From Clostridia bacterium (lineage in GTDB: Bacteria; Bacillota; Clostridia; UBA1381; UBA9506), in NCBI GenBank assembly GCA_017507525.1, contig JAFWAT010000002.1, positions 1 through 42,319 of the forward strand: 42,319 nucleotides of DNA. The letters are read 5' to 3'. Shown piece after piece: positions 1,689 to 18,193 of this stretch. Every line of letters starts with the position of its first letter. The stretch's first letter is position 1. A program made the position numbers and the translations under genes. The notes beneath the pieces were generated by a model, which worked only from the letters and a program-made list of their open reading frames with translations, was not told where the DNA came from and searched no databases.

Positions 1689-1753
1689 TCCAAGGATTTG
1701 ACATAAAATCCTAAGAATATGACCTAGATTTGGTACTTTAATTTTAGTATAAT
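1689..1753 (+). promoter_or_regulatory. Activator site pair and -10 of the GH1 gene
   Basis: Two motif copies occur, TCCAAGGATTTGACA at 1689-1703 and a weaker CCTAAGAATATGACC at 1710-1724; their GAC cores are 21 bp apart. TATAAT follows at 1748-1753, 38 bp after the start of the second copy, with no good -35 at the proper place. The same arrangement is found at 8971-9035 and 18129-18193. Overlap of the second site with the edge of the -35 region suggests activation. The binding protein is inferred, with the regulator at 14947 as candidate. Confidence 0.7.
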
Positions 1754-1788
1754 TAATATAATTTTATAATGATTTTAGAGGTGTTTGT

Positions 1789-3138
1789 ATGAATTTTACA
1801 TTTCCAAAGGATTTCCTTTTTGGCGCAGCCTGCTCTGCCTGCCAGATTGAATCTGGCTGTCATGAAGGCGGTAAGGGCAAGGATGTTCATGAACATTTTT
1901 ATCCCATCTATCCTGACAAGTTTTTTGGTGCTGACCCCAATGAGTCTGCTGATTTTTACCATAAGTATCCTGAAGATATTCAGAAAATGAAAGAGTTGGG
2001 GCTCAAGTGCTTCCGCTTTTCTATTTCTTGGTCGCGCATATATCCCAACGGTCCGGAAGAAGTTTGTCAGGCAGGGCTTGACTATTATTCCGACATGCTT
2101 GACAAATTAAAAGAGGCAGGCATTGTTACGTTCTTTGACCTGTTCCATTGCGATCTGCCCTATTGGGTAATAGAAAAAGGCGGCATCTTAGAACCTGCTT
2201 TTATTGATTGGTTTTCAAGCTATGCCGAAACATGTTTCCGTGCCTTGGGTGACAAGGTTGATTATTGGTGCACTGTTAACGAACCCAGTATCAACATCAT
2301 GGCGTCTTATGCTTATGGCAGCAATGCACCGTTTTTAAAGGATATGAATCTGGCAATTAAAGCTTGCCATAACATGATTTTAGCACACTATAAATGTTTG
2401 CACATTTATAAGTCCTTAGGTCTTAATGGCAAAATCGGTGCGGTCATTCATATGCAGCCTGTATACTCCCTGTCTATGGATCCTAAGGATCAGGCGGCGG
2501 CAGAACGCGACCAGGCATTTTACACCGGCTGGTGGCTTGACCCCATGCTGAAGGGGCATTATCCTGAAATTTTAATGGATTATCCCTACCTGACAGAAAA
2601 GCTGCCTGAAGGTTTTGCAGAAGAACTGAAAGAGAACTTCATTGAAAATGACTATATAGCGATTAATTACTACAGTCCGGGCTTTGTGGAATATGAGGAC
2701 AATGGAGAACTGGATTATAAAATTATTGTCAATGAAGAACTCCCCAAGGATGGCTATGGCTTCACCAGTTATCCTCAGGGTCTTTATGATACCATGCTGT
2801 ATTTAAAAGATACATACCCGGGTAAGGATATTATCATTACCGAAAACGGCATCGGCATCAAAAAGTGGGGCAATTATGATGAAGAGCTTGTTGATGATTA
2901 CCGTGTTAACTATATGCGTGAACATCTTCGTTCCCTCTCTCGTGCCATTAAAGCCGGTGCGCCGGTTATCGGATATCTCCATTGGTCCATTATGGATACC
3001 AATGAAATTTATGCGGGCGGATACAACTTTATGTTTGGTTTAAATCAGGTGCGTTACGACACGCCGGAGAAAACACGTATTCCCCGAAAGAGCTGGTATT
3101 ACTACCAACAGGTCATTAAAGAGTCTACTGTCAATTAG
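1789..3138 (+). CDS. Glycoside hydrolase family 1 beta-glycosidase
   Basis: A 449-residue cytoplasmic enzyme with no signal peptide; the length is normal for GH1 (TIM barrel). The N-terminal FLFGAACSACQIESG matches the family start (F.WG.A...YQ.EG). The acid/base glutamate is in TVNEPS (E165) and the nucleophile in ITENGIG (E352). The family would retain beta-glucosides, galactosides or their 6-phosphates, so it hydrolyses a beta-linked sugar, but the exact substrate is open. The usual H-W-D-L-P motif reads HCDLP and the aglycone/glycone region reads MDTNEIYAGGY where D-N-F-E-W is common, so this is a divergent member. It stands alone as a single-gene unit with a terminator behind it and is preceded by the 21-bp-spaced site pair. 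RBS GAGGTG lies nine bases before the ATG. Confidence 0.93.
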   Translation: MNFTFPKDFLFGAACSACQIESGCHEGGKGKDVHEHFYPIYPDKFFGADPNESADFYHKYPEDIQKMKELGLKCFRFSISWSRIYPNGPEEVCQAGLDYYSDMLDKLKEAGIVTFFDLFHCDLPYWVIEKGGILEPAFIDWFSSYAETCFRALGDKVDYWCTVNEPSINIMASYAYGSNAPFLKDMNLAIKACHNMILAHYKCLHIYKSLGLNGKIGAVIHMQPVYSLSMDPKDQAAAERDQAFYTGWWLDPMLKGHYPEILMDYPYLTEKLPEGFAEELKENFIENDYIAINYYSPGFVEYEDNGELDYKIIVNEELPKDGYGFTSYPQGLYDTMLYLKDTYPGKDIIITENGIGIKKWGNYDEELVDDYRVNYMREHLRSLSRAIKAGAPVIGYLHWSIMDTNEIYAGGYNFMFGLNQVRYDTPEKTRIPRKSWYYYQQVIKESTVN

Positions 3139-3213
3139 TCATCACGAAGTGATGTAGCAAACGCTTTTGGATGGTTTATGGACTCTTTCTACATTAAGCT
3201 TTTGTTTCATTCA

Positions 3214-3260
3214 GGCTGCGATGCATCGCTTTTTGGCGTAATGTGTCGCAGTCTTTTTTT
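3214..3260 (+). terminator. Intrinsic terminator after the GH1 gene
   Basis: A long hairpin pairs GGCTGCGATGCAT with AATGTGTCGCAGTC, using a few G-U pairs, and is followed by seven T. The rest of 3139-3404 holds only the leader of the next operon; I see no clear -35/-10 pair, though TATATT at 3347 is possible. Confidence 0.8.
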
Positions 3261-3404
3261 GCAAGTCGCGCAATAGCAGACCATACCAAAACTAAATATG
3301 CAAAAAAATAGACCAAAATGCTAAAGAAATTTTAAATGGACAATGATATATTGAAACAAAAGATATAGGCATATTCTTACATGGAATACGTATAGGAGGT
3401 TACT

Positions 3405-4499
3405 ATGAATCACTACGATTATCAGGAGCTGTGCTCCAATTTTGAGTACCAGGGAGAGTATATTGGTGCACGTCGTTACGGCGAAGGGCATATTAATGAT
3501 ACTTTTTTGGTTGAAACAACTGGGAAACGTTATATTTTGCAGCGGGTTAACACCCTTGTGTTTAAAGAGCCGGAAAAATTAATTGAAAACGTGGTTGCTG
3601 TAACAGAATATCTGCATAACAGAATTATTTCCAACTTCGGTGACCCCTATCGCGAAACCTTGACATTGATTCCTACCAAGGACGGACAGTGGTTTTATAA
3701 AACAGAGCAGGGCGATGTTTTCAGAATGTATCTTTTTGTTGGCAATGCCCGCAGTTATCAGACCATTGAAAATCCGGAGATGTTTTATAAAGTTGCGAAG
3801 TCTTTTGGCCGTTTTCAGAACCTTTTGAAAGCGTTTCCGGCAGATAAACTGCATGAAACCATTCCGAATTTCCATAATACCGTAGACCGCTACAGATTAT
3901 TTAAAGAGGCAATTGCTGCAGATAAAGCAGGGCGGCGGACTGAGGTTTTGGAGGAAATTGATTTTCTTTTAAAGCGGGAAGAGGAAGCGTCTTTAGTGCT
4001 TGATGCCATTGCAAGTGGAGAAATTCCCTTGCGTGTTACGCACAACGATACCAAGCTCAATAACGTTATGATTGACGATGAGACGGGCGAGGGCGTTTGT
4101 GTCATTGATTTAGATACAGTTATGCCCGGCTCTATGCTCTATGATTTTGGTGATTCCATCCGCTTTGGTGCCAGCACAGCGGCAGAGGATGAAACTGACC
4201 TTTCCAAGGTAGAAATGGATTTAGGGCTCTTTGAGCAGTATACCCGTGGGTATATTGAAGAGTTAAAGGAAAGCATTACCCCGAAGGAAGTTGAACTTCT
4301 GGCGTTTTCTGCAAAGCTTATGACCTTAGAGTGCGGTATGCGCTTTTTGACAGATTATTTAGATGGTGACTGCTACTTCCGTATTCATAGAGAAAAGCAT
4401 AATTTAGACCGTGCGAGAACCCAACTGAAGCTGGTTGCCGATATGGAAAAGAAGATGGACAAAATGAACGAAATTGTGTTACAATATTATGAGCAGTAA
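3405..4499 (+). CDS. nahK: N-acetylhexosamine 1-kinase-like phosphotransferase
   Basis: A 364-residue APH/choline-kinase-fold protein. The stretch VTHNDTKLNN (H213, N214, D215) is the catalytic loop. VIDLDTVMPGSML with D235/D237 is the metal-binding segment, followed by DFGDSIRFGAST. This run, the N-terminal GEGHINDTFLV and the C-terminal ECGMRFLTDYLDGD follow from memory the Bifidobacterium NahK (LnpB) sequence closely, far more than antibiotic or choline kinases. NahK makes GlcNAc-1-P or GalNAc-1-P with ATP in the galacto-N-biose/lacto-N-biose pathway. It heads an operon with the ROK kinase (16-bp gap) and NagA. No GNB phosphorylase, uridylyltransferase or epimerase is in the window. RBS AGGAGG precedes the ATG. 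Confidence 0.85.
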   Translation: MNHYDYQELCSNFEYQGEYIGARRYGEGHINDTFLVETTGKRYILQRVNTLVFKEPEKLIENVVAVTEYLHNRIISNFGDPYRETLTLIPTKDGQWFYKTEQGDVFRMYLFVGNARSYQTIENPEMFYKVAKSFGRFQNLLKAFPADKLHETIPNFHNTVDRYRLFKEAIAADKAGRRTEVLEEIDFLLKREEEASLVLDAIASGEIPLRVTHNDTKLNNVMIDDETGEGVCVIDLDTVMPGSMLYDFGDSIRFGASTAAEDETDLSKVEMDLGLFEQYTRGYIEELKESITPKEVELLAFSAKLMTLECGMRFLTDYLDGDCYFRIHREKHNLDRARTQLKLVADMEKKMDKMNEIVLQYYEQ

Positions 4500-4515
4500 A
4501 ATTGGAGGATAAACA

Positions 4516-5424
4516 ATGGACAAGAGCAAAACAATAACTGCAAAGCTAGGCATTGATGTGGGCGGCACAGATGTTAAATTTGCTGTGATTGACAACAATG
4601 CGATTGTATACCGCTCTAAAATTCCTGCCAATAAGGAATCTGTTGATGCAATTTTAAATGAGATTTGCGATGAATGCAAGAAAATTGCCAAAGAGTACCC
4701 ATACAGCAGTGTGGGTGTTGGGGTTCCCGGTATTGTTTATGACGGCCTTTTGACAACGATTAATTTACCTTTTAAGAACACGCCTGTTGCCAAGGAAATG
4801 GAAGCCCGTATCGGTATGCCGGTGGCAGTAGACAATGATGCAAACTGCGCAGCCTTAGGTGAAGTATTGGGTGGCGGTGGCAAGATATACAGAAACGCGG
4901 TGCTGATAACATTGGGTACCGGTGTTGGCGGTGGCGTAATTGCTAATGGTGAAATTTTGCGGGGCAGAGGCTGTGCCGGAGAACTGGGGCATATTATTAT
5001 CCAGTCAGAAAACGGACGCAAGTGCACCTGCGGTCAAACAGGCTGCTTAGAGCAATACGCATCCGCAAAGGCGCTGGTTAGACAGGCAACAGAAGCTGCA
5101 GGTGAGCATCCTGACAGTATGCTTGCACAGCTATACAGAGAAAATGGAGAATTAAACGGCAAACTGTTTTTCGATGCTTTACATAAAAATTGCCCGGTTG
5201 CAGAAGCTGTGTTTGACAAGTATCTTGACTGGCTCTGTGTTGGCATTAAAAGCTTTCAAATGATTTTTGACCCTGAGGTTATTCTTCTTGCCGGAGGCAT
5301 TACGAAGCAAGGCGACAATTTCTTAAAGCCCCTTAAGGCAAAACTGGGTGAGGGTATTAATGTGAAGATTGCAACACTGCAAAATGATGCCGGTGTCTTT
5401 GGTGCAGCCAATTTATCAATGTAA
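4516..5424 (+). CDS. ROK-family sugar kinase
   Basis: A 302-residue protein of normal length for bacterial ROK kinases. LGIDVGGTD (about 11-19) is the ATP phosphate-binding loop and ITLGTGVGGG the second. The sugar/zinc segment is GELGHIIIQ followed by CTCGQTGCLEQYAS (C170, C172, C177), which carries the ROK zinc cysteines. ROK kinases phosphorylate glucose, GlcNAc or ManNAc at C6. Because it lies between nahK and nagA in one operon (14 bp before nagA), a GlcNAc or ManNAc 6-kinase is likely, but glucokinase activity cannot be excluded. RBS GGAGG sits eight bases before the ATG. Confidence 0.9.
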   Translation: MDKSKTITAKLGIDVGGTDVKFAVIDNNAIVYRSKIPANKESVDAILNEICDECKKIAKEYPYSSVGVGVPGIVYDGLLTTINLPFKNTPVAKEMEARIGMPVAVDNDANCAALGEVLGGGGKIYRNAVLITLGTGVGGGVIANGEILRGRGCAGELGHIIIQSENGRKCTCGQTGCLEQYASAKALVRQATEAAGEHPDSMLAQLYRENGELNGKLFFDALHKNCPVAEAVFDKYLDWLCVGIKSFQMIFDPEVILLAGGITKQGDNFLKPLKAKLGEGINVKIATLQNDAGVFGAANLSM

Positions 5425-5437
5425 ATGAGGGATTTGT

Positions 5438-6499
5438 ATGATTTACAAAAATGCCAATGTTAATGGTAGACTCGTTGATATTCAGACGGAAAACGGAACG
5501 ATTGTAGCCGTGGGCAAGATTTCCGGTGAGGGTGTGGATATGAAAGGCTATAAGGTCTATCCCGGTCTGTTTGACATTCACTCACATGGCTGTGTGGGGT
5601 GTGACACCATGGATGGTAACCACCTGACTGAAATGTCTGAATATCTGGCAAAAAACGGAACAACCTCCTGGCTTCCTACCACGATGACTGTAGCAATGGA
5701 GGATATCAAGAAGGTTGTTAATGCAGATATTTCAAATGTTACCGGTGCGAATGTAGTAGGTTTTCATGCGGAAGGTCCTTATGTATCTCAAAAATATAAG
5801 GGCGCACAGAATGAAGCCTATATCATAGACCCTGATATTGACACATTCAGTCAGCTTAAAAACATTAAACTCATTACTCTGGCACCGGAGCTTCCCGGGG
5901 CTATGGAGTTTGTTAAACAATGCACTTGCCCTGTTTCTCTGGGACATACAGACGCTTCTTATGATTGTGCCGCCGAGGCCATTGAAAACGGTGCTGTTTG
6001 CATCACGCATACCTTTAACGCCATGGCACCCCTGCATCACAGAGAGCCCGGTTCCATCGGGGCGGCGATTGATAAGAATATTTATGTTCAGGTCATTGCT
6101 GATGGGATTCATTTGCATCCTGTTATGGTGCGGATGCTATACCGTTTGTTTGGTGCAGAACGCATGATTTTAATCAGTGACTCCATGTGTGCTACCGGCG
6201 TCAGTGATGGCGTGTATATGTTTGGCGGTCAGCCCATCAACGTTAAAAATTCAGTTGCCAGAACCCATTCAGGTGCCATTGCAGGCAGCACGTCCACACT
6301 CTTTACCTGCGTAAAAAAAGCAATTGAATTTGGCATTCCTGAGGCAGATGCCTTTCACATGGCATCCGGGACACCGGCGGCTATGCTAGGCGTAAAGAAA
6401 GGAAAAATAGAAGCAGGCTATGATGCAGAGTTCATAGCGGTTGATGAAAAAATGAATCTTGCCATGTGTGTGGTCAGAGGTGAAATGGTTTCGTTATAA
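5438..6499 (+). CDS. nagA: N-acetylglucosamine-6-phosphate deacetylase
   Basis: A 353-residue amidohydrolase, slightly short for NagA (about 380). The pattern fits the family: FDIHSHG (H48, H50), HAEGPYVS with the metal-ligand E112, SLGHTDASYD (H170), THTFNAMAPLHHR (H191) and LISDSM with the catalytic aspartate. It removes acetate from GlcNAc-6-P to give GlcN-6-P in the cytoplasm. It is the last gene of the nahK-ROK-nagA operon and ends six bases from the end of the opposite-strand AraC gene; I see no terminator between them. No nagB (deaminase) is in the window, so the next step would be encoded elsewhere. Confidence 0.93.
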   Translation: MIYKNANVNGRLVDIQTENGTIVAVGKISGEGVDMKGYKVYPGLFDIHSHGCVGCDTMDGNHLTEMSEYLAKNGTTSWLPTTMTVAMEDIKKVVNADISNVTGANVVGFHAEGPYVSQKYKGAQNEAYIIDPDIDTFSQLKNIKLITLAPELPGAMEFVKQCTCPVSLGHTDASYDCAAEAIENGAVCITHTFNAMAPLHHREPGSIGAAIDKNIYVQVIADGIHLHPVMVRMLYRLFGAERMILISDSMCATGVSDGVYMFGGQPINVKNSVARTHSGAIAGSTSTLFTCVKKAIEFGIPEADAFHMASGTPAAMLGVKKGKIEAGYDAEFIAVDEKMNLAMCVVRGEMVSL

Positions 6500-6505
6500 A
6501 CGATT

Positions 6506-7414
6506 TTATAATTCTAAAAACGAGTCTTGCTCCGTGGTTTCAAACTCAACCTTAACTGAGCGGCCGTATTCGGTGGGGGACATTCCTGTCAACTGTTTAA
6601 AACGCCGTGAAAACAGGTGCACAGTATCAAACCCCAGATGTGTTGAAATCTGGGATATGTTGTGCCCGCCCTCACGAATCATAGATTTGGCAATATCAAT
6701 TTTCATTTTGGCGAAGTGAGTCATAATCCCTTCGCCAATTTTTTCTTTAAATAAATTTTTCAGCGTGGTAGGGCTGACGTTTAAGGACTCGGCAATTTGA
6801 GTAAACGTCAGTTTTTCGCAAATGTGCTCCTGCAGAAAGCTCAGAACATTACTTAAAAGATCCTGCTCCATACCGCGCTTTAAGGTGGTACTGTTTCGCC
6901 TGATGCCGCCGTAGTTGCGGTAGAGAGAAATGAGCAAGTGCTCCAGCGACAGCGCAAGGACTTGCTCAGAACCAAAAAGAGCCTCCTCGCGACGCGTTAA
7001 TTCCTTTAAAAAGGTGTTTTCTAGGGGAGAAGAAAAGCTATGTATAGATTCTCGCACAATGGTTGCAAGCAAATGCTTTTCAATGTCTGAAAGAGGCAGA
7101 ATGCGCTTTTTGAAGAATTTGATGGCAGGGGACTTACAGCTGAAGGTAATGACAACCAGATTGGGCGCAACAACACCGTTAGCACGCAGATTGTGGTACT
7201 CATTCGGTTGGTGGAAAGCAGCATGACCTTGCGTTAAAATCCGCTTTTCTTTATCCATATCAATTTCAATTTCGCCTTTGTCTACATAGACAAACTCCCA
7301 GAAGTCATGGGTTTCACCTTTGAAAGAGTAATCCTTTTCATACTCAAAATAGTGAACGGTGAAAATTTCATTTATGGTAAAAACGCGTTTTAGTCTGGTT
7401 GGTTTAAACTCCAT
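6506..7414 (-). CDS. AraC-family transcriptional regulator with N-terminal sensor domain
   Basis: With the start at 7414 (GGAGGGGG just upstream) the protein has 302 residues; the frame reaches 7501 but the extension overlaps the promoter region of the neighbour. The N-terminus has a cupin-like arm (HDFWEFVYVDKGEIEIDM). The C-terminal 100 residues carry two helix-turn-helices: LTFTQIAESLNVSPTTLKNLF and HNISQISTHLGFDTVHLFSR, followed by the typical GMSPTEYGR. It is divergent from the GntP-type permease at 7553, so it probably controls that gene and perhaps itself, using a sugar or sugar acid bound to the cupin. Confidence 0.9.
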   Translation of the reverse strand: MEFKPTRLKRVFTINEIFTVHYFEYEKDYSFKGETHDFWEFVYVDKGEIEIDMDKEKRILTQGHAAFHQPNEYHNLRANGVVAPNLVVITFSCKSPAIKFFKKRILPLSDIEKHLLATIVRESIHSFSSPLENTFLKELTRREEALFGSEQVLALSLEHLLISLYRNYGGIRRNSTTLKRGMEQDLLSNVLSFLQEHICEKLTFTQIAESLNVSPTTLKNLFKEKIGEGIMTHFAKMKIDIAKSMIREGGHNISQISTHLGFDTVHLFSRRFKQLTGMSPTEYGRSVKVEFETTEQDSFLEL

Positions 7415-7486
7415 ATGGCCCCCTCCTTTGTGTTCTAGTATACCATGGGAGAGGTCTTTGTGTAAAGTCTTTTTGGGCAAAGGCAT

Positions 7487-7515
7487 TTGACATATCATCA
7501 AAAATGTGATATATT
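7487..7515 (+). promoter_or_regulatory. Consensus promoter of the GntP-type permease with palindrome in spacer
   Basis: TTGACA (7487-7492) and TATATT (7510-7515) are 17 bp apart. The spacer holds an inverted repeat, ATATCA (7492-7497) and TGATAT (7507-7512), which overlaps both hexamers. A repressor bound there would block RNA polymerase. Confidence 0.7.
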
Positions 7516-7552
7516 TTTAGTAAATTAGTAAATTATGTATAGGGGGAATACT

Positions 7553-8899
7553 ATGTCAACCATTTCGCTAATAGGCATTATCTTAGGTCTTATTGCTTTA
7601 ATTTATCTGGCATACCGGGGGCATTCCATTGTTTGGGTTGCGCCGGTGTGTGCGGCTATTGTTGCTGTTTTAGGTGGGCTGAACGTTTTAGATACCTATT
7701 TGGGAGATTACATTAAAGGAACGGCGGAATATATTATTTCTTGGTTTCCGGCTTTCTTTTTAGGTGCCGTATACGGAAAACTGATGGATATGACAGGCTC
7801 CGCCCGGTCACTGGCAAACAAGCTGGTTTCCCTGATTGGTCCTAAATTTGCAGTGCTGGCGGTGGTTCTGCCCTGCCTGTTAATGACCTTTGGGGGCATT
7901 TCGCTGTTTGTGGTGGTCTTTGTTATTTATCCCATGGGATATGCGATTTACCGTGAAGCAGACCTGCCCAGAACCCTGCTTCCCGGCGCCATTGCCTTTG
8001 GTGCCTTCGGCATTACCATGACGGCGATTCCGGGTACACCGCAGATACAGAACATTATTCCTACTCAATATTATGGTACGACGGCGACCGCAGCGCCTTG
8101 GATGGGTTTAATTGCGGCGTTATTGATTGCTGTGCCGGGGTATTTATACTTAGAGTGGCGTTGCAGAAGTGCCCGCAAAAAAGGTCTGCACTTTGAGGAA
8201 GACCCCAAGTATATAGACAACACTGCAGATGCTGCAACATTACCTGGATGGCACTGGCTCAGCGGCCTTGTGCCTTTGATTGTGGTTGTGCTTATGCTCA
8301 ATGTTCTGCCTGGCGTTTTAGAACGGGCAAATATTGTAAAGTGGTCAGCTAACCAGTCTATTGTTGTGGCTCTGATTGCCGGTATTTTGGTGACCTGCTT
8401 GATGAATATTCGGCAGTTTAAGGTTTTGCTTCCGGCTGTTAACAAAGGCGCTGACGGCTCGCTGACAGCGATTATGAACACGGCCTGCGCGGTTGGCTTT
8501 GGCTCAGTTGTAAAGGCAGTTCCTGGCTTTGCGTTGCTTAAAAATGCCATGCTTAATATGCCCGGCTCCATTTTATTTTCTGAGGCGATTGCCGTTAACG
8601 TATTGGCCGGTGCAACGGGCTCTGCCTCAGGTGGTATGTCCATTGCATTAGAGGCACTGTCTGCGCAGTATCTTGAAAAAGCTGCCGCTATTGGCCTAAA
8701 CCCTGAATATTTGCACCGCGTTGCCTCTCTGGCTTCCGGCGGTTTAGATACATTGCCCCATAACGGTGCGGTGTTGACGCTGCTTGCAGTATCAAACTGC
8801 ACCCATAAGGAATCCTACATAGACATTTGTGTAACGTCTTGTATTATTCCCGTTGTGGTGTCTGTACTGCTGTCTTTAGTTTGGGGACTTTTTATATAA
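7553..8899 (+). CDS. GntP-family permease (gluconate/organic-acid type)
   Basis: The start is taken at 7553 because AGGGGG lies seven bases before this ATG; the frame opens at 7535. The 448-residue protein is almost wholly hydrophobic with about 11-12 membrane segments. The FGAFGITMTAIPGTPQIQNIIP stretch, a glycine/proline-rich loop, and the C-terminal ATGSASGGMSIAL and GGLDTLPHNGAVL are typical of GntP/CitMHS-like transporters for gluconate, other sugar acids or small organic acids. It probably imports a substrate with protons. It forms a single-gene unit, divergent from the AraC regulator and closed by a terminator. Confidence 0.83.
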   Translation: MSTISLIGIILGLIALIYLAYRGHSIVWVAPVCAAIVAVLGGLNVLDTYLGDYIKGTAEYIISWFPAFFLGAVYGKLMDMTGSARSLANKLVSLIGPKFAVLAVVLPCLLMTFGGISLFVVVFVIYPMGYAIYREADLPRTLLPGAIAFGAFGITMTAIPGTPQIQNIIPTQYYGTTATAAPWMGLIAALLIAVPGYLYLEWRCRSARKKGLHFEEDPKYIDNTADAATLPGWHWLSGLVPLIVVVLMLNVLPGVLERANIVKWSANQSIVVALIAGILVTCLMNIRQFKVLLPAVNKGADGSLTAIMNTACAVGFGSVVKAVPGFALLKNAMLNMPGSILFSEAIAVNVLAGATGSASGGMSIALEALSAQYLEKAAAIGLNPEYLHRVASLASGGLDTLPHNGAVLTLLAVSNCTHKESYIDICVTSCIIPVVVSVLLSLVWGLFI

Positions 8900-8970: not shown

Positions 8971-9035
8971 TCTTAGAATTAGACATAAAAATCTTAGGAT
9001 TAGACATAGACAAAAAAAAGCTTGTTTGCTACAAT
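8971..9035 (+). promoter_or_regulatory. Activator site pair and -10 of the cytoplasmic glycosidase gene
   Basis: TCTTAGAATTAGACA (8971-8985) and TCTTAGGATTAGACA (8992-9006) form a direct repeat with a 21-bp period and differ at one base. TACAAT (9030-9035) begins 38 bp after the second copy, as in the other two promoters with this motif. No -35 hexamer is seen. Confidence 0.78.
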
Positions 9036-9067
9036 GAGTGTAACAAACAAAAAAGGGGGAACCTGTT

Positions 9068-11131
9068 TTGGAACAAAGTAAAAAACAAGTATTAAAACCA
9101 TGGCGCCCGATTGAGATAGAAGAATATGGTACGAGGGATACAGTCAAGGTTTGGGGCAGAGAATATACCGCTGACGGTTCTGCTTTAATGACATCTCTTA
9201 TATCACAGGGTGAAGAAATGCTGGCAGCACCCATGCGTCTTGTTGCCTTTGAAAACGGAGAAGAGGTTATCTGGGAGCATCAGAGTAATCATATGGTATC
9301 GGCAGATGATGCTGAGGCGGTTATCTGCGGTATTCAGAAAAGCGGCTCCTTTGTGTTTAACACCATTATGCGTGTTGAATATGACGGTCTTGTGAGTGTG
9401 ACCTTGAAAGTTGTTCCGGCAGGCGCTACCTCTAATGAAGTTTTTGGCTATACACAAAGCAAGAAAAGAGGCTTTGAATTAAATAAATTGTGGGTTGAAA
9501 TCCCCTTAAAGCGTGAGTATGCAAAAATGTATCAGGTCTCAGGTGCAACAGCTGTTAACTTTGAAAGTGATGATGTTACGGCAGACGTTGTTGTAAGAAG
9601 CAGCGGCAAGCTGGCGGCTTCTATGTGCACCTCTTTCTCACCTTTAATCACTTTAACAGAGGGAAACCTGGGTCTTTCTTATTTCTGCGAAAGTGCTGAA
9701 TATTGGCAGCCTGAGGCTGAGAATAAAGCCATTGAACTGGTTGTGGAAGATGACGTTGTTACCTTGCGTTTGCATTTGTTAGACAGCCACCCGGCAAGTT
9801 GGGTACCTCGTGGTCAAGCACCGATACAGAACAGCTATTTCCCGCTGACGTATCAGTTCGGCTTTAATGTAACCCCCATTAAGCCCTATCCCGAAAATCC
9901 CCATAAGAGAAAGATTCTGCACTTAAATGGCTATAAAAAAGAAATGCCTTATGACGAGTATCTTGCTACGCCCTCTGAGGAGTTTGGTGGCAAGAGCGGT
10001 TATGACAGAATGAAAGAACTGGGCGTTACAACCGTGATTGTACACGAAACCTGGAATACAACCCAGAACTTCTGGGAAATCCCCCTTCACCGTCAGCAGG
10101 TGGTTAAGAATATCATTAAAGAATGTCATGCCCGCGGCATTGAATTTGTTCCTTACTTCGGTTATGAAATCTCTACCCTTGGTAGCTATTGGGACAAGGA
10201 AACCGTTAATGATGTTATCCGCGTACCTGAAGACGATGAGGGATGGTTCGGTTGGTACCGTCAACCCTTCCAGAGAGACTATATTGTTTGTTATCGCTCT
10301 AAATGGCGGGATGAGATGATTGCCGGCATGCAGCGTTTGGTGGATGAATATGACATTGACGGTGCATACATGGATTTGGGTTTGTCTCCCTGTCAGAACG
10401 AACAGCACGGCTGTGGTTTCCGCGACCATGAGGGTAAGCTGCATTATACATATCCCATCTACGGAATCCGTGAACTGATGCGCGGCTTATATTCTATTTT
10501 TGAACCCCGTGGCGGCATGGTAAACTCCCATCAGGGTGCTAGTTATAATTTCCCCTGCCGTTCCTTTATTCATGAAACCTACACCGGTGAGGAAATTGTT
10601 TGGTATATTAAGGATGAGGGCGCCGATAAAATTCCCATGGATTACTTCAACTTCACCTTAAACGGCAGAAATGCCGGCAACCCGGTGAACTATGTTGTCA
10701 TTGAGTATCCGCACTGGAACTTTAAGGATTCCTTCACCGTAACTCTGTTAAACGCAGCACTGCCCAGACCGAAGAACTTTAAACAGCTGGAGCTGATTGC
10801 GCCTGTATGGAAGGCAATTGATACTTTCCCGGTTGAACATTCTACATGGCATCATTATCTTGATAACGATGCGGCAGTTAAGTGCTCAGAGGAGGATATC
10901 AAGACAAGTTTCTATGAATATGTAGATATCCGTGGTAAAAAGATGATTTTGGCGTTTATCACCAATCCTACCAGACATGAGCATGAAAATGTCAGCCTCT
11001 CTTTTGCAGAACTGGGTGCAATGACAGCTTATGACGCTTTGGCTGGAAAGGATGTTGTAGTTTCCGGTAATACGGTAACACTTTCCTTTAACACCTTTGA
11101 TTCTTATATTTTAGTCTTAAACGAAATTTAA
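9068..11131 (+). CDS. Glycoside hydrolase, GH123/DUF6067-like
   Basis: A 687-residue protein starting with TTG, supported by GGGGGA nine bases upstream. No signal peptide is seen, so it acts in the cytoplasm. A beta-rich N-terminal domain (about 1-275) is followed by a likely TIM barrel (about 280-600) starting at RKILHLNGYKKE. Barrel strands carry GVTTVIVHETWN, GIEFVPYFGYEIS, and DIDGAYMDLGLSPC with D431 and D436 on a strand end, then MVNSHQGASYNF and FIHETYTGEE. A small beta domain closes the protein. The layout resembles the GH123-like/DUF6067 group, one family of which removes beta-GalNAc, but I could not place the catalytic pair. It is alone in its unit, controlled by the shared activator sites. 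Substrate unknown. Confidence 0.65.
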   Translation: MEQSKKQVLKPWRPIEIEEYGTRDTVKVWGREYTADGSALMTSLISQGEEMLAAPMRLVAFENGEEVIWEHQSNHMVSADDAEAVICGIQKSGSFVFNTIMRVEYDGLVSVTLKVVPAGATSNEVFGYTQSKKRGFELNKLWVEIPLKREYAKMYQVSGATAVNFESDDVTADVVVRSSGKLAASMCTSFSPLITLTEGNLGLSYFCESAEYWQPEAENKAIELVVEDDVVTLRLHLLDSHPASWVPRGQAPIQNSYFPLTYQFGFNVTPIKPYPENPHKRKILHLNGYKKEMPYDEYLATPSEEFGGKSGYDRMKELGVTTVIVHETWNTTQNFWEIPLHRQQVVKNIIKECHARGIEFVPYFGYEISTLGSYWDKETVNDVIRVPEDDEGWFGWYRQPFQRDYIVCYRSKWRDEMIAGMQRLVDEYDIDGAYMDLGLSPCQNEQHGCGFRDHEGKLHYTYPIYGIRELMRGLYSIFEPRGGMVNSHQGASYNFPCRSFIHETYTGEEIVWYIKDEGADKIPMDYFNFTLNGRNAGNPVNYVVIEYPHWNFKDSFTVTLLNAALPRPKNFKQLELIAPVWKAIDTFPVEHSTWHHYLDNDAAVKCSEEDIKTSFYEYVDIRGKKMILAFITNPTRHEHENVSLSFAELGAMTAYDALAGKDVVVSGNTVTLSFNTFDSYILVLNEI

Positions 11132-11202: not shown

Positions 11203-11297
11203 ATGAAAAAATTGGAGAAGCTGTTGAACTGCTTAATGAATACAACAAAGCATTAGAAGAACTCGTTAAAGAACACGGCTCAGAAATTGAGTATTAA
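11203..11297 (+). pseudogene. Possible remnant of a small gene with an A-tract frameshift
   Basis: GGAGG stands seven bases before the ATG at 11203. The first codons run into a run of six A; adding one A would join M-K-K to IGEAVELLNEYNKALEELVK plus ten more residues and a stop, giving a 31-residue acidic helical peptide. As written, the ATG frame stops after 17 codons. It may be a decayed 3' end of a longer gene, a sequence error, or chance. Confidence 0.3.
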
Positions 11298-11310
11298 TAG
11301 AGAGATCGTT

Positions 11311-11412
11311 TGTGGGTTGGTACAATTATACTTTTAGTTTTCTCGGTTATGCCCGGAACAATCAGCACTAACAATTATGGCGATGATCCGAAAGATACAT
11401 GTGTTGGATAAC
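11311..11412 (+). other. Small hydrophobic reading frame, doubtful
   Basis: The frame starting TTG TGG GTT encodes WVGTIILLVFSVMPG followed by a short polar tail of 18 residues, 33 residues in all, resembling a single membrane helix. There is only a weak GAGAG upstream and no neighbour to support it. It could be part of a decayed gene. Confidence 0.2.
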
Positions 11413-11445
11413 TGATCATTTTTGTAATTGTGTAAAGCCTTTACA

Positions 11446-11485
11446 AACCCTTTGAGATATCAAAATGGTATTTCAAGGGTTTTTT
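11446..11485 (+). terminator. Intrinsic terminator in the intergenic region
   Basis: AACCCTTTGAGATA pairs with TATTTCAAGGGTT, with one bulge and one G-U, followed by six T. It implies that something was transcribed across 11190-11440. Confidence 0.75.
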
Positions 11486-11553
11486 ATCATTATTTCAAAG
11501 ACTTAAATAAAATTATTTGTTTAAAAAAATGTCTTGAATTTCCCGTTTTCAAA

Positions 11554-11582
11554 TTGACTATTTTTAGGTTTTGTGATACAAT
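11554..11582 (+). promoter_or_regulatory. Promoter in the intergenic region
   Basis: TTGACT (11554-11559) and TACAAT (11577-11582) are separated by 17 bp. Transcription would begin near 11589 and run through repeat copy A into the hairpin at 11713-11739, giving a short RNA of about 150 nt or a leader for the deacetylase gene. Confidence 0.55.
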
Positions 11583-11647
11583 CTCAATATGTATGACACT
11601 TTGTACACAATGTTGAAGCTATATTTTTTCTCCTAACTTGACATATG

Positions 11648-11715
11648 TTATTGCTAAAAAAGATTGGCATCTAGATTGTACAGCTTTTATAAAGCTTGAA
11701 ATGCAAGGGATAAAA
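11648..11715 (+). repeat. Intergenic repeat, copy A
   Basis: This roughly 65-bp stretch, starting TTGCTAAAAAAGATTGGCAT and ending near AAGGGATAAAAAGC, is about 80% identical by eye to copy B (42110-42176). A more decayed copy C lies near 39960-40018. In A and B a central CTTTATAAAG-like palindrome follows TTGGCATCTAGATT, and each copy is followed at once by a terminator-like hairpin and then a gene. It could be a mobile-element remnant or a structured RNA element. Confidence 0.65.
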
Positions 11716-11752
11716 AGCCTTCCTCTTGAGGGGAAGCCTTTAAAAATAATAA
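11713..11752 (+). terminator. Terminator-like hairpin after repeat copy A
   Basis: GCCTTCCTC pairs with GGGGAAGCC (one mismatch, one G-U) over a TTGA loop. The downstream side is TTTAAAAATAATAAAAATTTTT, rather than a clean T run, so termination strength is uncertain. Confidence 0.5.
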
Positions 11753-11860
11753 AAATTTTTCTCTTACTTGACAAAACCATAACGAGAATAATGTCGAATT
11801 TTGTTTAAGAAGCTCATAATATAATGATTATTAAAAAGGATTGAAGGGAAGAACGTTCAA

Positions 11861-12685
11861 ATGAAAATGAAATTAAAAGACGGAAAGTCAAAAGTTCTTA
11901 CACTCAGTTATGACGATGGTGTTGTGCAAGACATCAGGCTGATTGAGATCATGAACAAATACGGATTGAAAGGCACTTTTAATATTAATTCCGGCAAGTA
12001 TTTACCTGAAGATGCTGTTCGGGATAGATTTTATGGAAGAATGAAGCTGTCAGAAGCAAAAGAACTGTATATTAACTCCGGGCATGAGGTTGCAATTCAT
12101 GCTCTTACGCATCCTTTTCTTGAACAGCTAGATTCATGTGAGATTATATATGAGATTACAGAGGATAGAAAGAATATAGAAAACCAGTATGGAGTAATCG
12201 CAAAGGGTATGGCGTATCCTTTCGGCACATATAACGATCGTGTGGTAGATATTTTAGAAAAATGTCAGATTGCATATGCCAGAACAACTAAAGCTACATA
12301 TCAATTTGGATTTCCGGAAAATTGGTTGTTGCTTCATCCTACCTGCCATCATGATTACGAAAACCTTGAAGAGTTAATAAAAAACTTTGTTGAGACAACG
12401 AATCGGTGGGGAAATGCAGAAATGTTCTACCTATGGGGGCATAGCTACGAATTTGACAAAAACGATAATTGGGATGTTATTGAAAAATTTGCTGAATATG
12501 CCGGAGGCCATGACCACATTTGGTATGCCACAAATATTGAGATATACAATTATGTTAAAGCATATGAAAGATTGCAAACGAGCTTTGACAAGAAGATTAT
12601 ACACAACCCATCAAGCGTGGATGTTTGGGTTGAAATTAAAGGTGAGATATATTGCGTAAAATCCGGAGATACCTTAAGATTATAA
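11861..12685 (+). CDS. Polysaccharide deacetylase-like (NodB/CE4) protein
   Basis: A 274-residue protein with the CE4 fold. LSYDDG (D18, D19) is the motif TFDDG, HALTH (H80, H84) gives the two metal-binding histidines, and GMAYPFGTYNDRVVDIL matches the third motif. Near the C-terminus YLWGHSYEFD fits the histidine motif. CE4 enzymes remove N- or O-acetyl groups from chitin, peptidoglycan or xylan-like glycans. No signal peptide is seen, so it may act in the cytoplasm on imported oligosaccharides. It stands alone behind the repeat-containing leader. TATAAT at 11820 is a possible -10. AAGGGAAG lies nine bases before the start; a second ATG two codons later is possible. Confidence 0.85.
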   Translation: MKMKLKDGKSKVLTLSYDDGVVQDIRLIEIMNKYGLKGTFNINSGKYLPEDAVRDRFYGRMKLSEAKELYINSGHEVAIHALTHPFLEQLDSCEIIYEITEDRKNIENQYGVIAKGMAYPFGTYNDRVVDILEKCQIAYARTTKATYQFGFPENWLLLHPTCHHDYENLEELIKNFVETTNRWGNAEMFYLWGHSYEFDKNDNWDVIEKFAEYAGGHDHIWYATNIEIYNYVKAYERLQTSFDKKIIHNPSSVDVWVEIKGEIYCVKSGDTLRL

Positions 12686-12690
12686 AAAAC

Positions 12691-12720
12691 TTGCTTGTTT
12701 AGGCTGATTTATGATACAAT
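12691..12720 (+). promoter_or_regulatory. Probable promoter of the DUF5107 operon
   Basis: TTGCTT (12691-12696) and TACAAT (12715-12720) are 18 bp apart. The leader of about 160 nt before the start codon holds a hairpin AAGCTGGC/GCCGGCTT (about 12821-12848) with no T run, so its role is unclear. Confidence 0.5.
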
Positions 12721-12884
12721 GAATATAAAGAAAAGGGAAGCAAGGCGACAAGCATTTCACATTAGAATTTAATTTGTTTGTGAAACAATATACAGAAGAA
12801 ACCGCCTGTGAGGGCGTTTGTAAGCTGGCTGATTCTGTTCGCCGGCTTGCGGATATGTTTAAAAAAACAAGAAGGAGATTTACT

Positions 12885-14912
12885 ATGACGAAATTAACTT
12901 TTGAGGACTACGAAATTTTATCCGCAGATTTAGGAGAGGAAAACATGCTGCCGGATATCAAAAATGTTGACTATCTCAAGAGAGCAAAATATGCACTGTC
13001 TGAAAAAATTCCGCCGGAAGATGGCAAATACTTTAATCAAGGCCATATTAAAACCATTTTGCCTTACACCGTGCAGGATAATTATAATCGTGACAGAAAG
13101 ATACGTAAATTTCATGCAGCAATTTTAGAAAATGACAAGTTGAAAGCTGTTTTTCTGCCGGAATTGGGCGGCAGACTCTGGTCATTGTATCATAAGGGTC
13201 TTAAAAAAGAGCTTTTATATGTAAATTCTGTTTTTCAGCCGGCAAACCTTGCCATTCGTAACGCCTGGTTTTCCGGCGGGATAGAATGGAACGTTGGTAT
13301 GCGCGGTCACACGCCGCTGACCTGTTCACAGATGTATGCCTGCAGGATGGAAGATGAAAAGGGCAACCCCTGCCTGAGAATGTACGAATTTGAGCGAATT
13401 CGCGGTCTTGCCTACAGCATTGATTTTATGCTTCCTGAGAATTCAGAAATTTTATATGTAAAAACCACGGTAGAAAACACCAATGATGATGCAAGATATA
13501 TGTATTGGTGGTCTAACATTGCGGTTCCAGAAGAAGAAGGCGTTAGAATTTTAGCACCTTGTGACAGCAGCTATGTCACGCTTTATAACGATGAAAAAGG
13601 ACATTATCTGGATTTAGAGCCAATGCCCTTTAGTGACCGTTCCGGTGAAACGCTGGACATATCCTATCCTGAAAATTCCTTCCGTTCTCTAGACTTTTTC
13701 TATAAAACCCGTAACAATCACAGAAAATGGGAGGCAACCTTCGGAAAAGACGGTACTGGCCTTGGGCAGTTTTCCACTCCGGAACTGATTGGCAGAAAGC
13801 TTTTTGTCTGGGGTCAAGGTAAGGGTGGCAGAAACTGGTGTAAATGGCTGTCAGATAAGTATGAGCCTTATATTGAGATTCAAGCAGGGCTTTTAAGCAC
13901 CCAGTTAGAACATATACCTATGCCGGCGAAAACCACCTGGTCATGGGTAGAAGGCTACTTTGCAGCAGTTTGCGATCCCGAAACGGTTCACGGGGAATAT
14001 CAGTCGGCGGTTAGTGCTTTTGAAGATTATCTCGAAAGCTTTGCACCGTCTGATGATGAAATGCGTGCTTTGTTTGACAATGTAAAGCCTGTCAGCATGG
14101 AGCAGATGGGTTCTGCTTGGGGTTATGTTGAGAACTGTCTCCGTGAAAAAGCAGGAAAAGCCGGTGTGAGCCCAAGATTAGAATTTCCGGCGGAAGCGAT
14201 TACGGACGGAGAAAAGCTGTGGCTTGATTTTCTTACAACCGGTTATATGAGTGATTATGACCTGACGGAACCGCCAAAATCCTTCCATGTTGACCCCTTG
14301 TGGCTTCCGATGTTTGAAAAGCAAATTGCTGACGGCAAGGCAAATGCCTATATGTATTTGCAGTACGGCGTTGCTTTATATGCCAACGACATGGTTACAG
14401 AGGCATATCAAGCATTTGAAAAGTCAATAGAACTTACACCCAATGCCTGGGCATACAGAAACCTTTCCATGATTGAAAATAATGTGTATGAAAACAAGGA
14501 AAAGGGTTTGTATTACATAGAGAAGGCTATGGCGCTGAATGCAACGTACCGTGGTCTGGTTGTGAACTGCGGTCAGGTTATGCTGGGCGTCGAGGCATAT
14601 GAAAAATGGCTTGCAATCTATGATAACCTTACAGATGCGCTAAAGGCAGACGGCAGACTCATGATCTATCGCGTTATAGCGCTGATGGAGGTAGGCCGTT
14701 ATGAAGAGGCTTCTGCGGTTTTACATAACTCCTTTGAAATTTATGACGTACGCGAGGGTGAAGTTTCCATTACTAAAGTATGGGAAGATTTACATAGACG
14801 GATGATTGTGAAGGAAACCGGTATTACAGATGCAGACGAATTAAACCGGTTGTATAAAGAACGGTATCCGCTCCCGCAGGAACTTAACTTTAGTCAGAAA
14901 GAAGATCAGTAA
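12885..14912 (+). CDS. DUF5107 domain protein with C-terminal TPR repeats
   Basis: The start at 12885 is supported by AAGGAG seven bases upstream; a frame opening at TTG 12774 lacks an RBS. The 675-residue protein begins with a beta-sandwich domain of the DUF5107 type (about 60-330). Markers are KAVFLPELGGRLWSLYHKG, a galactose-mutarotase-like entry, then WFSGGIEWNVGMRGHTPLT and MYWWSNIAV. The C-terminal part (about 480-640) holds TPR-like helices such as MVTEAYQAFEKSIELTPNAW and EEASAVLHNSFEIYD. There is no signal peptide. Proteins of this type are common in gut Clostridia glycan loci, but I know of no proven activity. It is the first gene of an operon with a YesN/YesM-type pair (34 bp gap), so a role in sensing or handling the same sugar is likely. 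Confidence 0.82.
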   Translation: MTKLTFEDYEILSADLGEENMLPDIKNVDYLKRAKYALSEKIPPEDGKYFNQGHIKTILPYTVQDNYNRDRKIRKFHAAILENDKLKAVFLPELGGRLWSLYHKGLKKELLYVNSVFQPANLAIRNAWFSGGIEWNVGMRGHTPLTCSQMYACRMEDEKGNPCLRMYEFERIRGLAYSIDFMLPENSEILYVKTTVENTNDDARYMYWWSNIAVPEEEGVRILAPCDSSYVTLYNDEKGHYLDLEPMPFSDRSGETLDISYPENSFRSLDFFYKTRNNHRKWEATFGKDGTGLGQFSTPELIGRKLFVWGQGKGGRNWCKWLSDKYEPYIEIQAGLLSTQLEHIPMPAKTTWSWVEGYFAAVCDPETVHGEYQSAVSAFEDYLESFAPSDDEMRALFDNVKPVSMEQMGSAWGYVENCLREKAGKAGVSPRLEFPAEAITDGEKLWLDFLTTGYMSDYDLTEPPKSFHVDPLWLPMFEKQIADGKANAYMYLQYGVALYANDMVTEAYQAFEKSIELTPNAWAYRNLSMIENNVYENKEKGLYYIEKAMALNATYRGLVVNCGQVMLGVEAYEKWLAIYDNLTDALKADGRLMIYRVIALMEVGRYEEASAVLHNSFEIYDVREGEVSITKVWEDLHRRMIVKETGITDADELNRLYKERYPLPQELNFSQKEDQ

Positions 14913-14946
14913 TATTTATCGGTGAAAGCCGAAAGGGGGGATTGTT

Positions 14947-16419
14947 ATGTATAAAGCGTTAATTATTGATGATGAGATAGAAGCTATTGAAAGTGTGTAC
15001 AGCGCCTTTGACTGGAACAGTCTGCATGTAACGGAAGTTGTTAAAATCAGTAATCCCCACGGGCTCGTAGAGCGCATGGTTTCAGAATCTCCTGAAATTG
15101 TTTTTATCGATATTGAAATGGGTGTTGTTTCCGGGCTCGATGTGATTGAAGCTTGCAGCAAGCTGCTTCCTGAAACACGCTTTGTCATCATTAGCGGACA
15201 TGACAATTTTGAATACGCAAGAACCTCTATACGGTTGGATGTTGTGTATTATCTGCTGAAGCCCTTTACTGAATATGAGGTGGATATTGCAACGGAAAAG
15301 CTGATGAATGATTTAAACGTAAGATTTGGCGGCGAAACAGGTGTGCAGCTCAATGATATTAACAGCTTTTTATCCAATAAGCAGCAATTTCAGGATTTTA
15401 TGCTAGAAAGCGGCATTATTTTTCCCCAAAGCTATCGCTTTATTGTTGCGTGCATGGAGAAGGTGGATCTTGAATCTTTAAGCCTTTGTCTGCAGGATCA
15501 GCTCATTAAGCGATATAAAATCGGCAGCAAAAAATATTTGCTGGTGGTGGAAGAACCATTAAGTGAAAACAGCATGATTCTGCTTGAAAATTTAAGCTGC
15601 ATCAGTAATATGACCTTAGGCATCAGTGATATCATCAGTACACCGGGGGAAACATATGCCTGCTTTAAACAGGCGAATATGCTTGCTTACGGAACTTTTA
15701 TTCACGAACGGTTTGGCATTTATAAAACAGAACGGGACGGAGAAGATGTTTTCAATAACCTGATGGATATGCTGGAGGCACATTTTGAAGCAGAAAATTT
15801 TGACGCTCTGCAGGAAATGCTGACGGTGCTGCCGAAGCAATCAAGAGATAAAAAGTTTAACATGGAGCAAATTGTCTTTTTCCATAACTCATTTATTATT
15901 CGGTTAAACACAGTATTGCGGCAGAGAAATAAAAAAGATTTTCTCTATATTTTGTCCTTTGAAGAACTGCTCAATGAGTATTCTGACCTTCAAAGCATGT
16001 GCGATACGCTCAAAGAGGCACTGTGCGCTGTGAACGACAGTAACCCCGAGTCTGCCGATGAAAAACCAAAGATTAACTCCGTCGAAGTGGTTGAGCAGGT
16101 GAAGCAGTATCTGAAGGTTAACTATGTTCAGAAAATCAGAATCAAAGATTTAAGCACCATGTTCTATATCAGTGAGGCGTATTTAAGTGATATATTTAAA
16201 ACCTTGACCCACAAAACTATTATTGAATATCTGGCAGATGTACGTATTGAAGCGGCTAAGGAATCACTGAAAAACACACGAATGAACATCTCAAACATTG
16301 CAGAATCTGTCGGTTACGGTGACTACTGTTACTTTAATAAGATTTTCAAAAAGTACGTAGGTGTGACGCCGTATCAGTACCGAAAAAAATATGCAGGGAA
16401 TGTTGAAAATGAAGATTAA
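14947..16419 (+). CDS. YesN-like response regulator (REC + AraC-type DNA-binding)
   Basis: A 490-residue protein. The receiver domain (1-120) has DDE at about residues 9-11 and the phosphorylated aspartate D55 in IVFIDIEMG, with the lysine in LLKPF at about residue 105. A middle region of roughly 250 residues has no clear motif. The C-terminal AraC/XylS domain (about 383-485) carries RIKDLSTMFYISEAYLSDIF and MNISNIAESVGYGDYCYFNK followed by GVTPYQYRKKY. It is co-transcribed with the sensor kinase, which overlaps its 3' end by 11 bases. Regulators of this kind are typically paired with LplABC-like sugar importers, and the importer follows at 18233. I infer that it binds the paired sites at 1689, 8971 and 18129. 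AAAGGGGGG precedes the ATG. Confidence 0.92.
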   Translation: MYKALIIDDEIEAIESVYSAFDWNSLHVTEVVKISNPHGLVERMVSESPEIVFIDIEMGVVSGLDVIEACSKLLPETRFVIISGHDNFEYARTSIRLDVVYYLLKPFTEYEVDIATEKLMNDLNVRFGGETGVQLNDINSFLSNKQQFQDFMLESGIIFPQSYRFIVACMEKVDLESLSLCLQDQLIKRYKIGSKKYLLVVEEPLSENSMILLENLSCISNMTLGISDIISTPGETYACFKQANMLAYGTFIHERFGIYKTERDGEDVFNNLMDMLEAHFEAENFDALQEMLTVLPKQSRDKKFNMEQIVFFHNSFIIRLNTVLRQRNKKDFLYILSFEELLNEYSDLQSMCDTLKEALCAVNDSNPESADEKPKINSVEVVEQVKQYLKVNYVQKIRIKDLSTMFYISEAYLSDIFKTLTHKTIIEYLADVRIEAAKESLKNTRMNISNIAESVGYGDYCYFNKIFKKYVGVTPYQYRKKYAGNVENED

Positions 16420-18112
16420 AACCTGGTTTGTCTGGATTATTGTCGGAACAGTCAGTTTGTTTTTCCTCGTTCAGGTTTGCTTTTATTTTATGTTCCGGAA
16501 TTGGAATAACAGCATGAGGGATTCGCTGATAGAGACAACCGCCAACCAGTCGGCATCCCAGATTGCAGAGCAGTACAACAGTGTGGAGGATGTATCTGTC
16601 AATATTATGACGGATGCATATGTGCAGGACTATCTGTTTAATGCAGAGACGCATACCTATGAAAATTATAATCATATTACCAACAATATTACATCTATTA
16701 TTTTTGCCAACAAAGGCATACAATACGTTGCGATTTTAAATGAAAGTAATATTATTTTGAATGTGTCTCAGGCAGGAAACATGCTGGAACATCTTTCGTT
16801 GCTTGAACAGGTGAAACAAGATATTGCTCAAAGTGAGTGGCAGGGCGCTTTTGTGAAAGCCTATCAACACAGCGAAAAAAATTGCTTTGCCTATGTTGAC
16901 TGCATTCGTTCGTTAACCTTTGACAACGCCCGGCATCGCCCTCGCTACATTGTTATTTTGTTTGAGGTCAGTGAACTGGAAAGCGCGTTGGAGCCTGTTT
17001 TTGACCAAAACAAATTTACGCTGAGAATTTTGGATCATCATGACAGAATTTTACGATCCGGCAGCAGCAACGAATTCGGTCAGATTTTTACACCGGCAGA
17101 CCACGCGCCCGACTCTTGGTATAAAATTGTTACCATGGACCAGCCGGAATGGAAGCTGTGCTTTTCAATTCCAAAAGTATATTTCGGCTCCAGCCAGAGC
17201 TCGTTTTTAGTCTTTATGCTGCTGGTAGTGGTTCTGAATGGTTTATTGTTGATTTTTATGATTAAAATTCTGATTCAAAATATCTCTGAATCCATTTCAG
17301 ATATTGAAAAGGAAATCGGAATTATTTATGGCGGCAAATGGGAGCACCGAATCAGGTGTAAGAAAGAAAACGAAATCGGCAGTATTGCCCAAAACTTTAA
17401 CACGCTTTTAGATAAATATGAAGAGATGATGCGTAAAAACAGTGCAATGGAGGAGGAAATACACACCGCAAGGCTCTTGCAGCTGCAGGCGCAGATAGAC
17501 CAGCTGCAGGAGAAAATATCCCCCCACTTTTTGTATAACTCCATGGAGTATATAAAAGGCGTTGCCCAGGAGCACGGTGTGGAAAAAATTGCGGATATCA
17601 CCAGCGTTTTATCACAAAACTTCCGCTATAACATGGATGCCGCCAGGGAGGTTTCAGTTAAAGAAGACCTGTTTTATGCCCTGTCTTATTTCAATGTTGT
17701 CAACTCAAGGCGAAAGCATCCCATTCGCTTGAATCTGAACCTTTCCAAAGATATTATGGAACGACGGATTATTAAGATGGTCTTCCAGCCGATTTTGGAG
17801 AATACATTAAAACACGGTGATCTGGATGAAAACGGTGTTGTTGATTTTTCGGGCAGAATCCGTGACGATGGCTTTACGGAAATTTCGGTCAAGGATAACG
17901 GACGAGGGATTCCGGATGAAACCTATGAAAAGCTGCAAGCATCTTTGCGGGACGATGTGAATTATGTTAAAGACGAAAAAGGTGACCATCAGGGAATCTT
18001 AAATGTGCATACAAGACTTAAGCTGACCTATGGTGACGGGTGTGGCATCAGTATCAAGAGCAAATTTGGTGAATGTACAGAGATTATTATAACATTTAAA
18101 CAAAAAAATTAG
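16409..18112 (+). CDS. YesM-like sensor histidine kinase
   Basis: The start at 16409 is chosen because CAGGGAA is eight bases before this ATG; two earlier ATGs in frame at 16391 and 16400 are possible. The 567-residue protein has a membrane segment at about 5-27, an extracellular Cache-like sensor region to about 265, a second segment (about 268-292), a HAMP linker (IGIIYGGKWEHRIRCKKENE) and a coiled linker. The phosphorylated histidine is H373 in SPHFLYNSMEYIKG (HPK8-type H box), and DNGRGIPDE starts the ATP-binding G box. It would phosphorylate the response regulator encoded just before it. Likely ligand: an extracellular sugar, directly or through the binding protein at 20120. Confidence 0.9.
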   Translation: MKIKTWFVWIIVGTVSLFFLVQVCFYFMFRNWNNSMRDSLIETTANQSASQIAEQYNSVEDVSVNIMTDAYVQDYLFNAETHTYENYNHITNNITSIIFANKGIQYVAILNESNIILNVSQAGNMLEHLSLLEQVKQDIAQSEWQGAFVKAYQHSEKNCFAYVDCIRSLTFDNARHRPRYIVILFEVSELESALEPVFDQNKFTLRILDHHDRILRSGSSNEFGQIFTPADHAPDSWYKIVTMDQPEWKLCFSIPKVYFGSSQSSFLVFMLLVVVLNGLLLIFMIKILIQNISESISDIEKEIGIIYGGKWEHRIRCKKENEIGSIAQNFNTLLDKYEEMMRKNSAMEEEIHTARLLQLQAQIDQLQEKISPHFLYNSMEYIKGVAQEHGVEKIADITSVLSQNFRYNMDAAREVSVKEDLFYALSYFNVVNSRRKHPIRLNLNLSKDIMERRIIKMVFQPILENTLKHGDLDENGVVDFSGRIRDDGFTEISVKDNGRGIPDETYEKLQASLRDDVNYVKDEKGDHQGILNVHTRLKLTYGDGCGISIKSKFGECTEIIITFKQKN

Positions 18113-18128
18113 ACATTTTTAACGAAAA

Positions 18129-18193
18129 TCCTAGGATTAGACAAAAATATCCTAGGATTTTCCCTATATTATTTTACAAAAATTTTATATAAT
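18129..18193 (+). promoter_or_regulatory. Activator site pair and -10 of the ABC importer operon
   Basis: TCCTAGGATTAGACA (18129-18143) and TCCTAGGATTTTCCC (18150-18164) are a direct repeat with a 21-bp period. TATAAT (18188-18193) starts 38 bp after the second copy. Each copy has a palindromic core (AATCCTAGGATT at 18127-18138). No good -35 is present. The pair begins 16 bp after the kinase stop codon. Confidence 0.8.

Follow-up and report, generated by a model that had tools for sequence, protein, structure and literature searches.

Three pairs of a 15-bp element were found in the window, the whole stretch of 42,319 nucleotides analysed here, each at a fixed distance from the -10 box of a promoter. 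These pairs are very probably bound as operators by the YesN-type response regulator whose gene lies at 14947-16419; it would use them in the class-II geometry of AraC and XylS to activate a regulon. Control of one regulon by an AraC-family response regulator, as the initial annotation had proposed, is supported by a fourth pair in the same genome, by seven promoters in four other species and by a shared regulator-kinase-importer module. Gut Clostridia have many YesN/YesM systems located beside LplABC-type importers, and to our knowledge the binding sites of these systems are mostly undefined. The predicted site in five species, with its geometry and a partial sequence rule, provides a basis for regulon prediction and for the design of a simple binding test.

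Paired elements and promoter boxes in the window

The paired sites and the promoter boxes that accompany them are as follows.

1689-1724, forward strand: paired site 1 (TCCAAGGATTTGACA, 6 bp, CCTAAGAATATGACC), 5' of the GH1 gene
1748-1753, forward strand: -10 box TATAAT of site 1, with a start-to-start distance of 38 bp from the proximal copy; TAGATT (3/6) at the -35 position
8971-9006, forward strand: paired site 2 (TCTTAGAATTAGACA, 6 bp, TCTTAGGATTAGACA)
9007-9012, forward strand: -35 box TAGACA of site 2 (5/6), with a 17-bp spacer to TACAAT
9030-9035, forward strand: -10 box TACAAT of site 2, of the TG-extended type, with a start-to-start distance of 38 bp from the proximal copy
18129-18164, forward strand: paired site 3 (TCCTAGGATTAGACA, 6 bp, TCCTAGGATTTTCCC), 5' of lplB
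18188-18193, forward strand: -10 box TATAAT of site 3, with a start-to-start distance of 38 bp from the proximal copy; TATATT (2/6) at the -35 position

The pairs begin at 1689/1710, 8971/8992 and 18129/18150, exactly where the initial annotation had placed them, and the proximal copies (1710, 8992 and 18150) all start exactly 38 bp before a -10 box that agrees with TATAAT in at least five of six positions. The period is 21 bp for every pair, in the case of the copy at 1710 when it is aligned on its TGAC tail, whereas the TCCTAA head of this copy (CCTAAGAATATGACC) lies at 1709, a distance of 20 bp. The GACA tail that had been assigned to the core is absent from the copy at 18150 (GGATTTTCCC), and the same deviant form is kept in the sister species G005. 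The three promoters had also been described as having no good -35 box, which is correct for the pairs at 1689 and 18129 and does not apply to the pair at 8971.

The three pairs are not a chance occurrence. When matrices were trained on the other two promoters, each held-out pair ranked among the top three of all window positions on both strands, the pairs scoring 24.4, 31.4 and 29.2 bits against 17.5, 19.6 and 14.4 bits respectively for the next-best place. A lone partial copy (ATTAGACA, 18108-18119) is found at the lplB promoter, 28 bp 5' of the corresponding stretch in the distal copy; it does not keep the register of the pair, its position is not conserved, and it was rejected as a third site.

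Regulator, predicted target genes and neighbours

The features involved in the proposed regulon are listed below.

1789-3138, forward strand: GH1 enzyme of the beta-glucosidase type, predicted target of site 1 (Pfam PF00232, E=8.3e-121; beta-glucosidases in NCBIfam and PDB)
9068-11131, forward strand: GH123_N/GHL6-like protein, predicted target of site 2 (Pfam GH123_N, E=2.9e-12)
11449-11479, forward strand: terminator-like hairpin with TTTTTT after it, separating the GH123-like gene from the genes downstream
14947-16419, forward strand: YesN-type response regulator, the proposed activator (Pfam Response_reg 5-111, HTH_18 402-480)
16391-18112, forward strand: YesM-type sensor histidine kinase (Pfam His_kinase, HATPase_c)
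18221-19192, forward strand: LplB-type ABC permease, predicted target of site 3, the sole strong LplB homologue in the genome
19194-20066, forward strand: LplC-type ABC permease, whose orthologues adjoin the regulator in loci L123 and L048
20120-21703, forward strand: oligosaccharide-binding lipoprotein of the importer, with PDB relatives that include the binding proteins AlgQ1/AlgQ2
22424-25894, forward strand: large exported protein, itself lacking a paired site; its paralogue on contig C2 (L020:6048-9707) shares 39% identity with it over 1008 aa

The regulator is of the YesN type, having an N-terminal receiver domain and a C-terminal AraC double HTH. Six HTH_18 proteins were found in the genome, only one of which, the protein encoded at 14947, lies in an open frame of more than 400 aa and carries a receiver domain; no second AraC-type response regulator was seen there. 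The YesM-type kinase adjoins it, an arrangement that is kept in G005, G008, G004 and the goat rectum MAG RGIG3010.

A further terminator-like hairpin was located by eye at about 21726-21770, between the importer and the 22424 gene. The terminator-like hairpins suggest that the sites in the window drive short transcription units (GH1; GH123-like; lplBCA) and not the cluster in its entirety. Since they also separate the regulator gene from site 2, this gene probably lies outside the site-2 transcript and autoregulation is not evident in the window. No Rfam families were found in the window or in contig C2. A PDB relative was not found for the exported protein at 22424-25894, and the conserved C-terminal part that it shares with its paralogue on C2 shows no clear Pfam family.

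Genes for an N-acetylhexosamine 1-kinase-like protein, a ROK kinase and a NagA-like protein occur in a row at 3405-6499, with no paired site. These neighbours suggest glycans of an amino-sugar type as candidates; further pointers to the candidate substrates are the beta-glucosidase-type GH1 enzyme and the importer binding protein related to AlgQ-type oligosaccharide binders.

Genome-wide occurrence and the fourth pair

The genome (1.36 Mb in 76 contigs) was covered by pattern searches, which could overlook weak sites with a larger number of mismatches. The degenerate paired pattern gave four matches compared to none for the reversed control, whereas the single 15-bp element, allowing up to three mismatches, was no more common than its control (19 matches each). 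The partner at 21 bp was present only for the five matches with two or fewer mismatches and for none of the matches with three.

Searching with the 15-bp element yielded one further occurrence with at most one mismatch, at position 5643 of contig C2. It has a partner (AACAAGAATTAGACA) 21 bp on and a TATAAT box at exactly 38 bp, and neither feature was used in finding it. This pair is located 5' of the gene for a 1219-aa exported protein with SLH domains, the paralogue of the 22424 protein in the window. The regulon had been proposed to consist of the GH1 enzyme, the GH123-like enzyme and the LplABC-type importer; these remain and the surface protein on C2 is added, making it wider than first claimed. 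On the 5' side of the C2 site (L020, 491-5046) there are genes for an AraC protein, an amidohydrolase, an FGGY kinase, a UPF0047 protein and a TIM-like protein in one divergent block, which is possibly a sugar catabolic operon.

Sister species and survey of the order

In a survey of 95 genomes from the order, the pattern together with a -10 box was found four times in the genome of the window, twice in the sister species G005 and once in G025. The G025 match was counted as chance, as it lies inside an open frame of 743 codons. A close orthologue of the regulator (76% identical) occurs only in the same two species as the motif, although co-occurrence alone cannot single out the response regulator as these are sister species.

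One of the G005 pairs lies before the lplB orthologue, which is not on the contig of the regulator; this pair is identical to site 3 at 34/36 positions. The other lies about 110 bp 5' of the regulator gene and reads into it; this promoter can be aligned with site 2 of the window through the -10 box (30/36 and 22/29). Site 2 therefore looks like a former promoter of the regulator that would now drive the GH123-like gene. Following these orthologous-looking promoters (8971-9067 in the window; L039, contig C26 of G005), the GH123-like gene is found in the window and the regulator gene in G005, suggesting that genes have been inserted or lost between promoter and regulator.

Diverged pairs in other lineages

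The initial annotation had advised looking for the motif before LplB homologues beside YesN/YesM genes, and it was found there in a diverged form in G008, G004 and RGIG3010. The regulators of G008 and G004 are about 34% identical to that of the window and are accompanied by kinase and importer genes. Pairs of the ATGCGTAATTTTACA/AAGCAGAATTATACA type are located before lplB in both genomes, 21 bp apart and with a -10 offset of 38, and a variant (GTGCATAATTTTACA) with an offset of 37 adjoins the regulator and precedes a GH2 gene in G008. No such pairs were found in other genomes of their genus. In RGIG3010, where the regulator is 32% identical, the pair TTGCAGTATTTTCAA/TTGCACCATTTTGCA occurs between the regulator and lplB, with TATCAT at 38 bp; it occurs once in that genome, and the sequence is identical in G219, which belongs to another family. 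Related SLH proteins adjoin lplBCA in RGIG3010 (L048:3211-6216).

Taken over eleven promoters in five species, the direct repeats are always 21 bp apart, about two helical turns, and the proximal repeat starts 38 bp before the -10 box in nine and 37 bp in two. If the -10 box is numbered -12 to -7, the distal copy extends from about -71 to -57 and the proximal copy from about -50 to -36, and the -35 hexamer adjoins the proximal copy. The -35 box is poor (1-4 of 6) while the -10 box is good in most of the promoters compared, a combination that fits with activation.

Positions 8-9 of the site are AT in all 22 copies and C14 is present in 21 of them. In the distant lineages the 5' half of the site has diverged and the ATT(N3)CA half is conserved. 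When the DNA-binding domains of the regulators are aligned, the first recognition helix proves to have diverged, whereas the second (YFNK-FKK) hardly varies; second helices of the YFNK type are common in the family. The parallel between the first HTH and the 5' half, and between the second HTH and the 3' half, is based on three lineages and is suggestive only.

In a ranking of 56 lplB upstream regions, which left out the genome of the window and G005, the combination of 21-bp spacing and 38-bp offset was second of 288 by mean and first by strong cases, a signal that comes largely from the G008/G004 and RGIG3010/G219 sites, that is, from two near-duplicate pairs. When spacing alone was scored over all lplB promoters without the -10 box, 21 bp did not stand out (mean of 2.23 vs 2.86 at 22 bp), and the layout is therefore not universal for LplB genes. 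It is possible, although we consider it somewhat doubtful, that YesN-type regulators of LplABC importers have a general operator layout, with 15-bp repeats 21 bp apart, 38 bp to the -10 box, a fixed 3' half (ATT...CA) contacted by the near-constant second HTH and a 5' half that varies among lineages, contacted by the diverged first HTH. If this were true, the operators of a large and poorly characterised family would become predictable from sequence.

Proposed mechanism and alternative readings

In the proposed mechanism, the kinase encoded at 16391-18112 would phosphorylate the regulator on a sugar signal. Two regulator monomers would then occupy one face of the DNA in head-to-tail orientation, the double-HTH domain of each covering one 15-bp element, and the proximal monomer, abutting the -35 position, would recruit RNA polymerase to promoters that for the most part have a good -10 and a poor -35 box. 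Activation of this kind would be class II, the type known from AraC I1-I2 and XylS. The predicted targets are the GH1 enzyme, the GH123-like protein, the single LplABC-type importer and the SLH surface protein on contig C2, and in G005 the regulator gene itself may also be a target.

The pairs could instead be operators of another AraC-family protein, either the cupin-AraC protein encoded at 6506-7501 or the AraC protein on C2 (491-1414). Both have close orthologues only in the genome of the window and in G005, as does the motif; the 6506-type gene in G005 is divergent from the regulator gene across the site, and the C2 gene shares a contig with the fourth site. However, G008 and G004 have homologous pairs with the 21/38 geometry adjoining the response regulator. 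Neither genome shows the C2-type AraC at E<=1e-30, and their best matches of the 6506 type, at 30-35% identity, lie on other contigs. At least one pair directly adjoins the response regulator or the kinase in all five genomes, which also argues against another AraC protein, and we regard this alternative as unlikely.

Repression or dual control, where the unphosphorylated regulator or another factor would occlude the -35 region, is less likely still. In its favour, the proximal copy abuts the -35 position, and a fair -35 box (TAGACA, 5/6) is present in two promoters, which could work without an activator. Against this, the poor -35 and good -10 boxes of most promoters are the usual picture of activator dependence, and the geometry equals that of the characterised activators XylS (PMC5481539) and MtlR (PMC4514859).

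Recent descent from a duplicated or mobile segment can hardly account for the shared sequence: all copies have a common layout and the lplB pair deviates alike in both sister species, but apart from the pair and the -10 box no similarity between the three promoters in the window is apparent by eye, the orthologous promoters are identical at 30/36 and 34/36 positions in the pair vs 21/45 and 14/45 downstream of the -10 box, and the geometry persists in lineages where the sequence has changed.

Comparison with known systems

Binding of the YesN-type regulator to the pairs would be an ordinary kind of gene switch, as the principle of class-II activation by AraC-type proteins has long been known. 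The initial annotation knew of no description of the motif and none was found by us in the open literature searched, which is not proof of absence. In sequence, the solved structures most closely related to the DNA-binding domain are those of AraC-type response regulators (PDB entries 6swi, 3oou and 3lsg).

The XylS operator at Pm has a period of 21 bp and overlaps the -35 box. The candidate sites resemble it in their paired 15-bp direct repeats and class-II layout, whereas XylS is a one-component benzoate sensor and its boxes (TGCA/GGTA) are unlike the elements in the window. At Pm, two monomers with two recognition helices each bind two 15-bp direct repeats, the proximal site first (PMC5481539). 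MtlR binds PmtlE at two 15-bp blocks, -72 to -58 and -50 to -36, located 5' of the -35 box (PMC4514859). These positions are close to those deduced here, although the MtlR period is 22 bp and MtlR is a one-component mannitol regulator of Pseudomonas.

No clear repeat was reported for the pneumococcal YesN (PMC11034029). In the XydS/R system of Clostridium cellulolyticum, XydR binds upstream of its targets with no assignable consensus site (PMC3572039). This system also combines a regulator having a receiver and an AraC-type HTH with a paired sensor kinase, and it controls glycan genes. XydR differs in showing no autoregulation, whereas the predicted site in G005 precedes the regulator gene, and unlike in XydR, the site predicted here is defined by its sequence.
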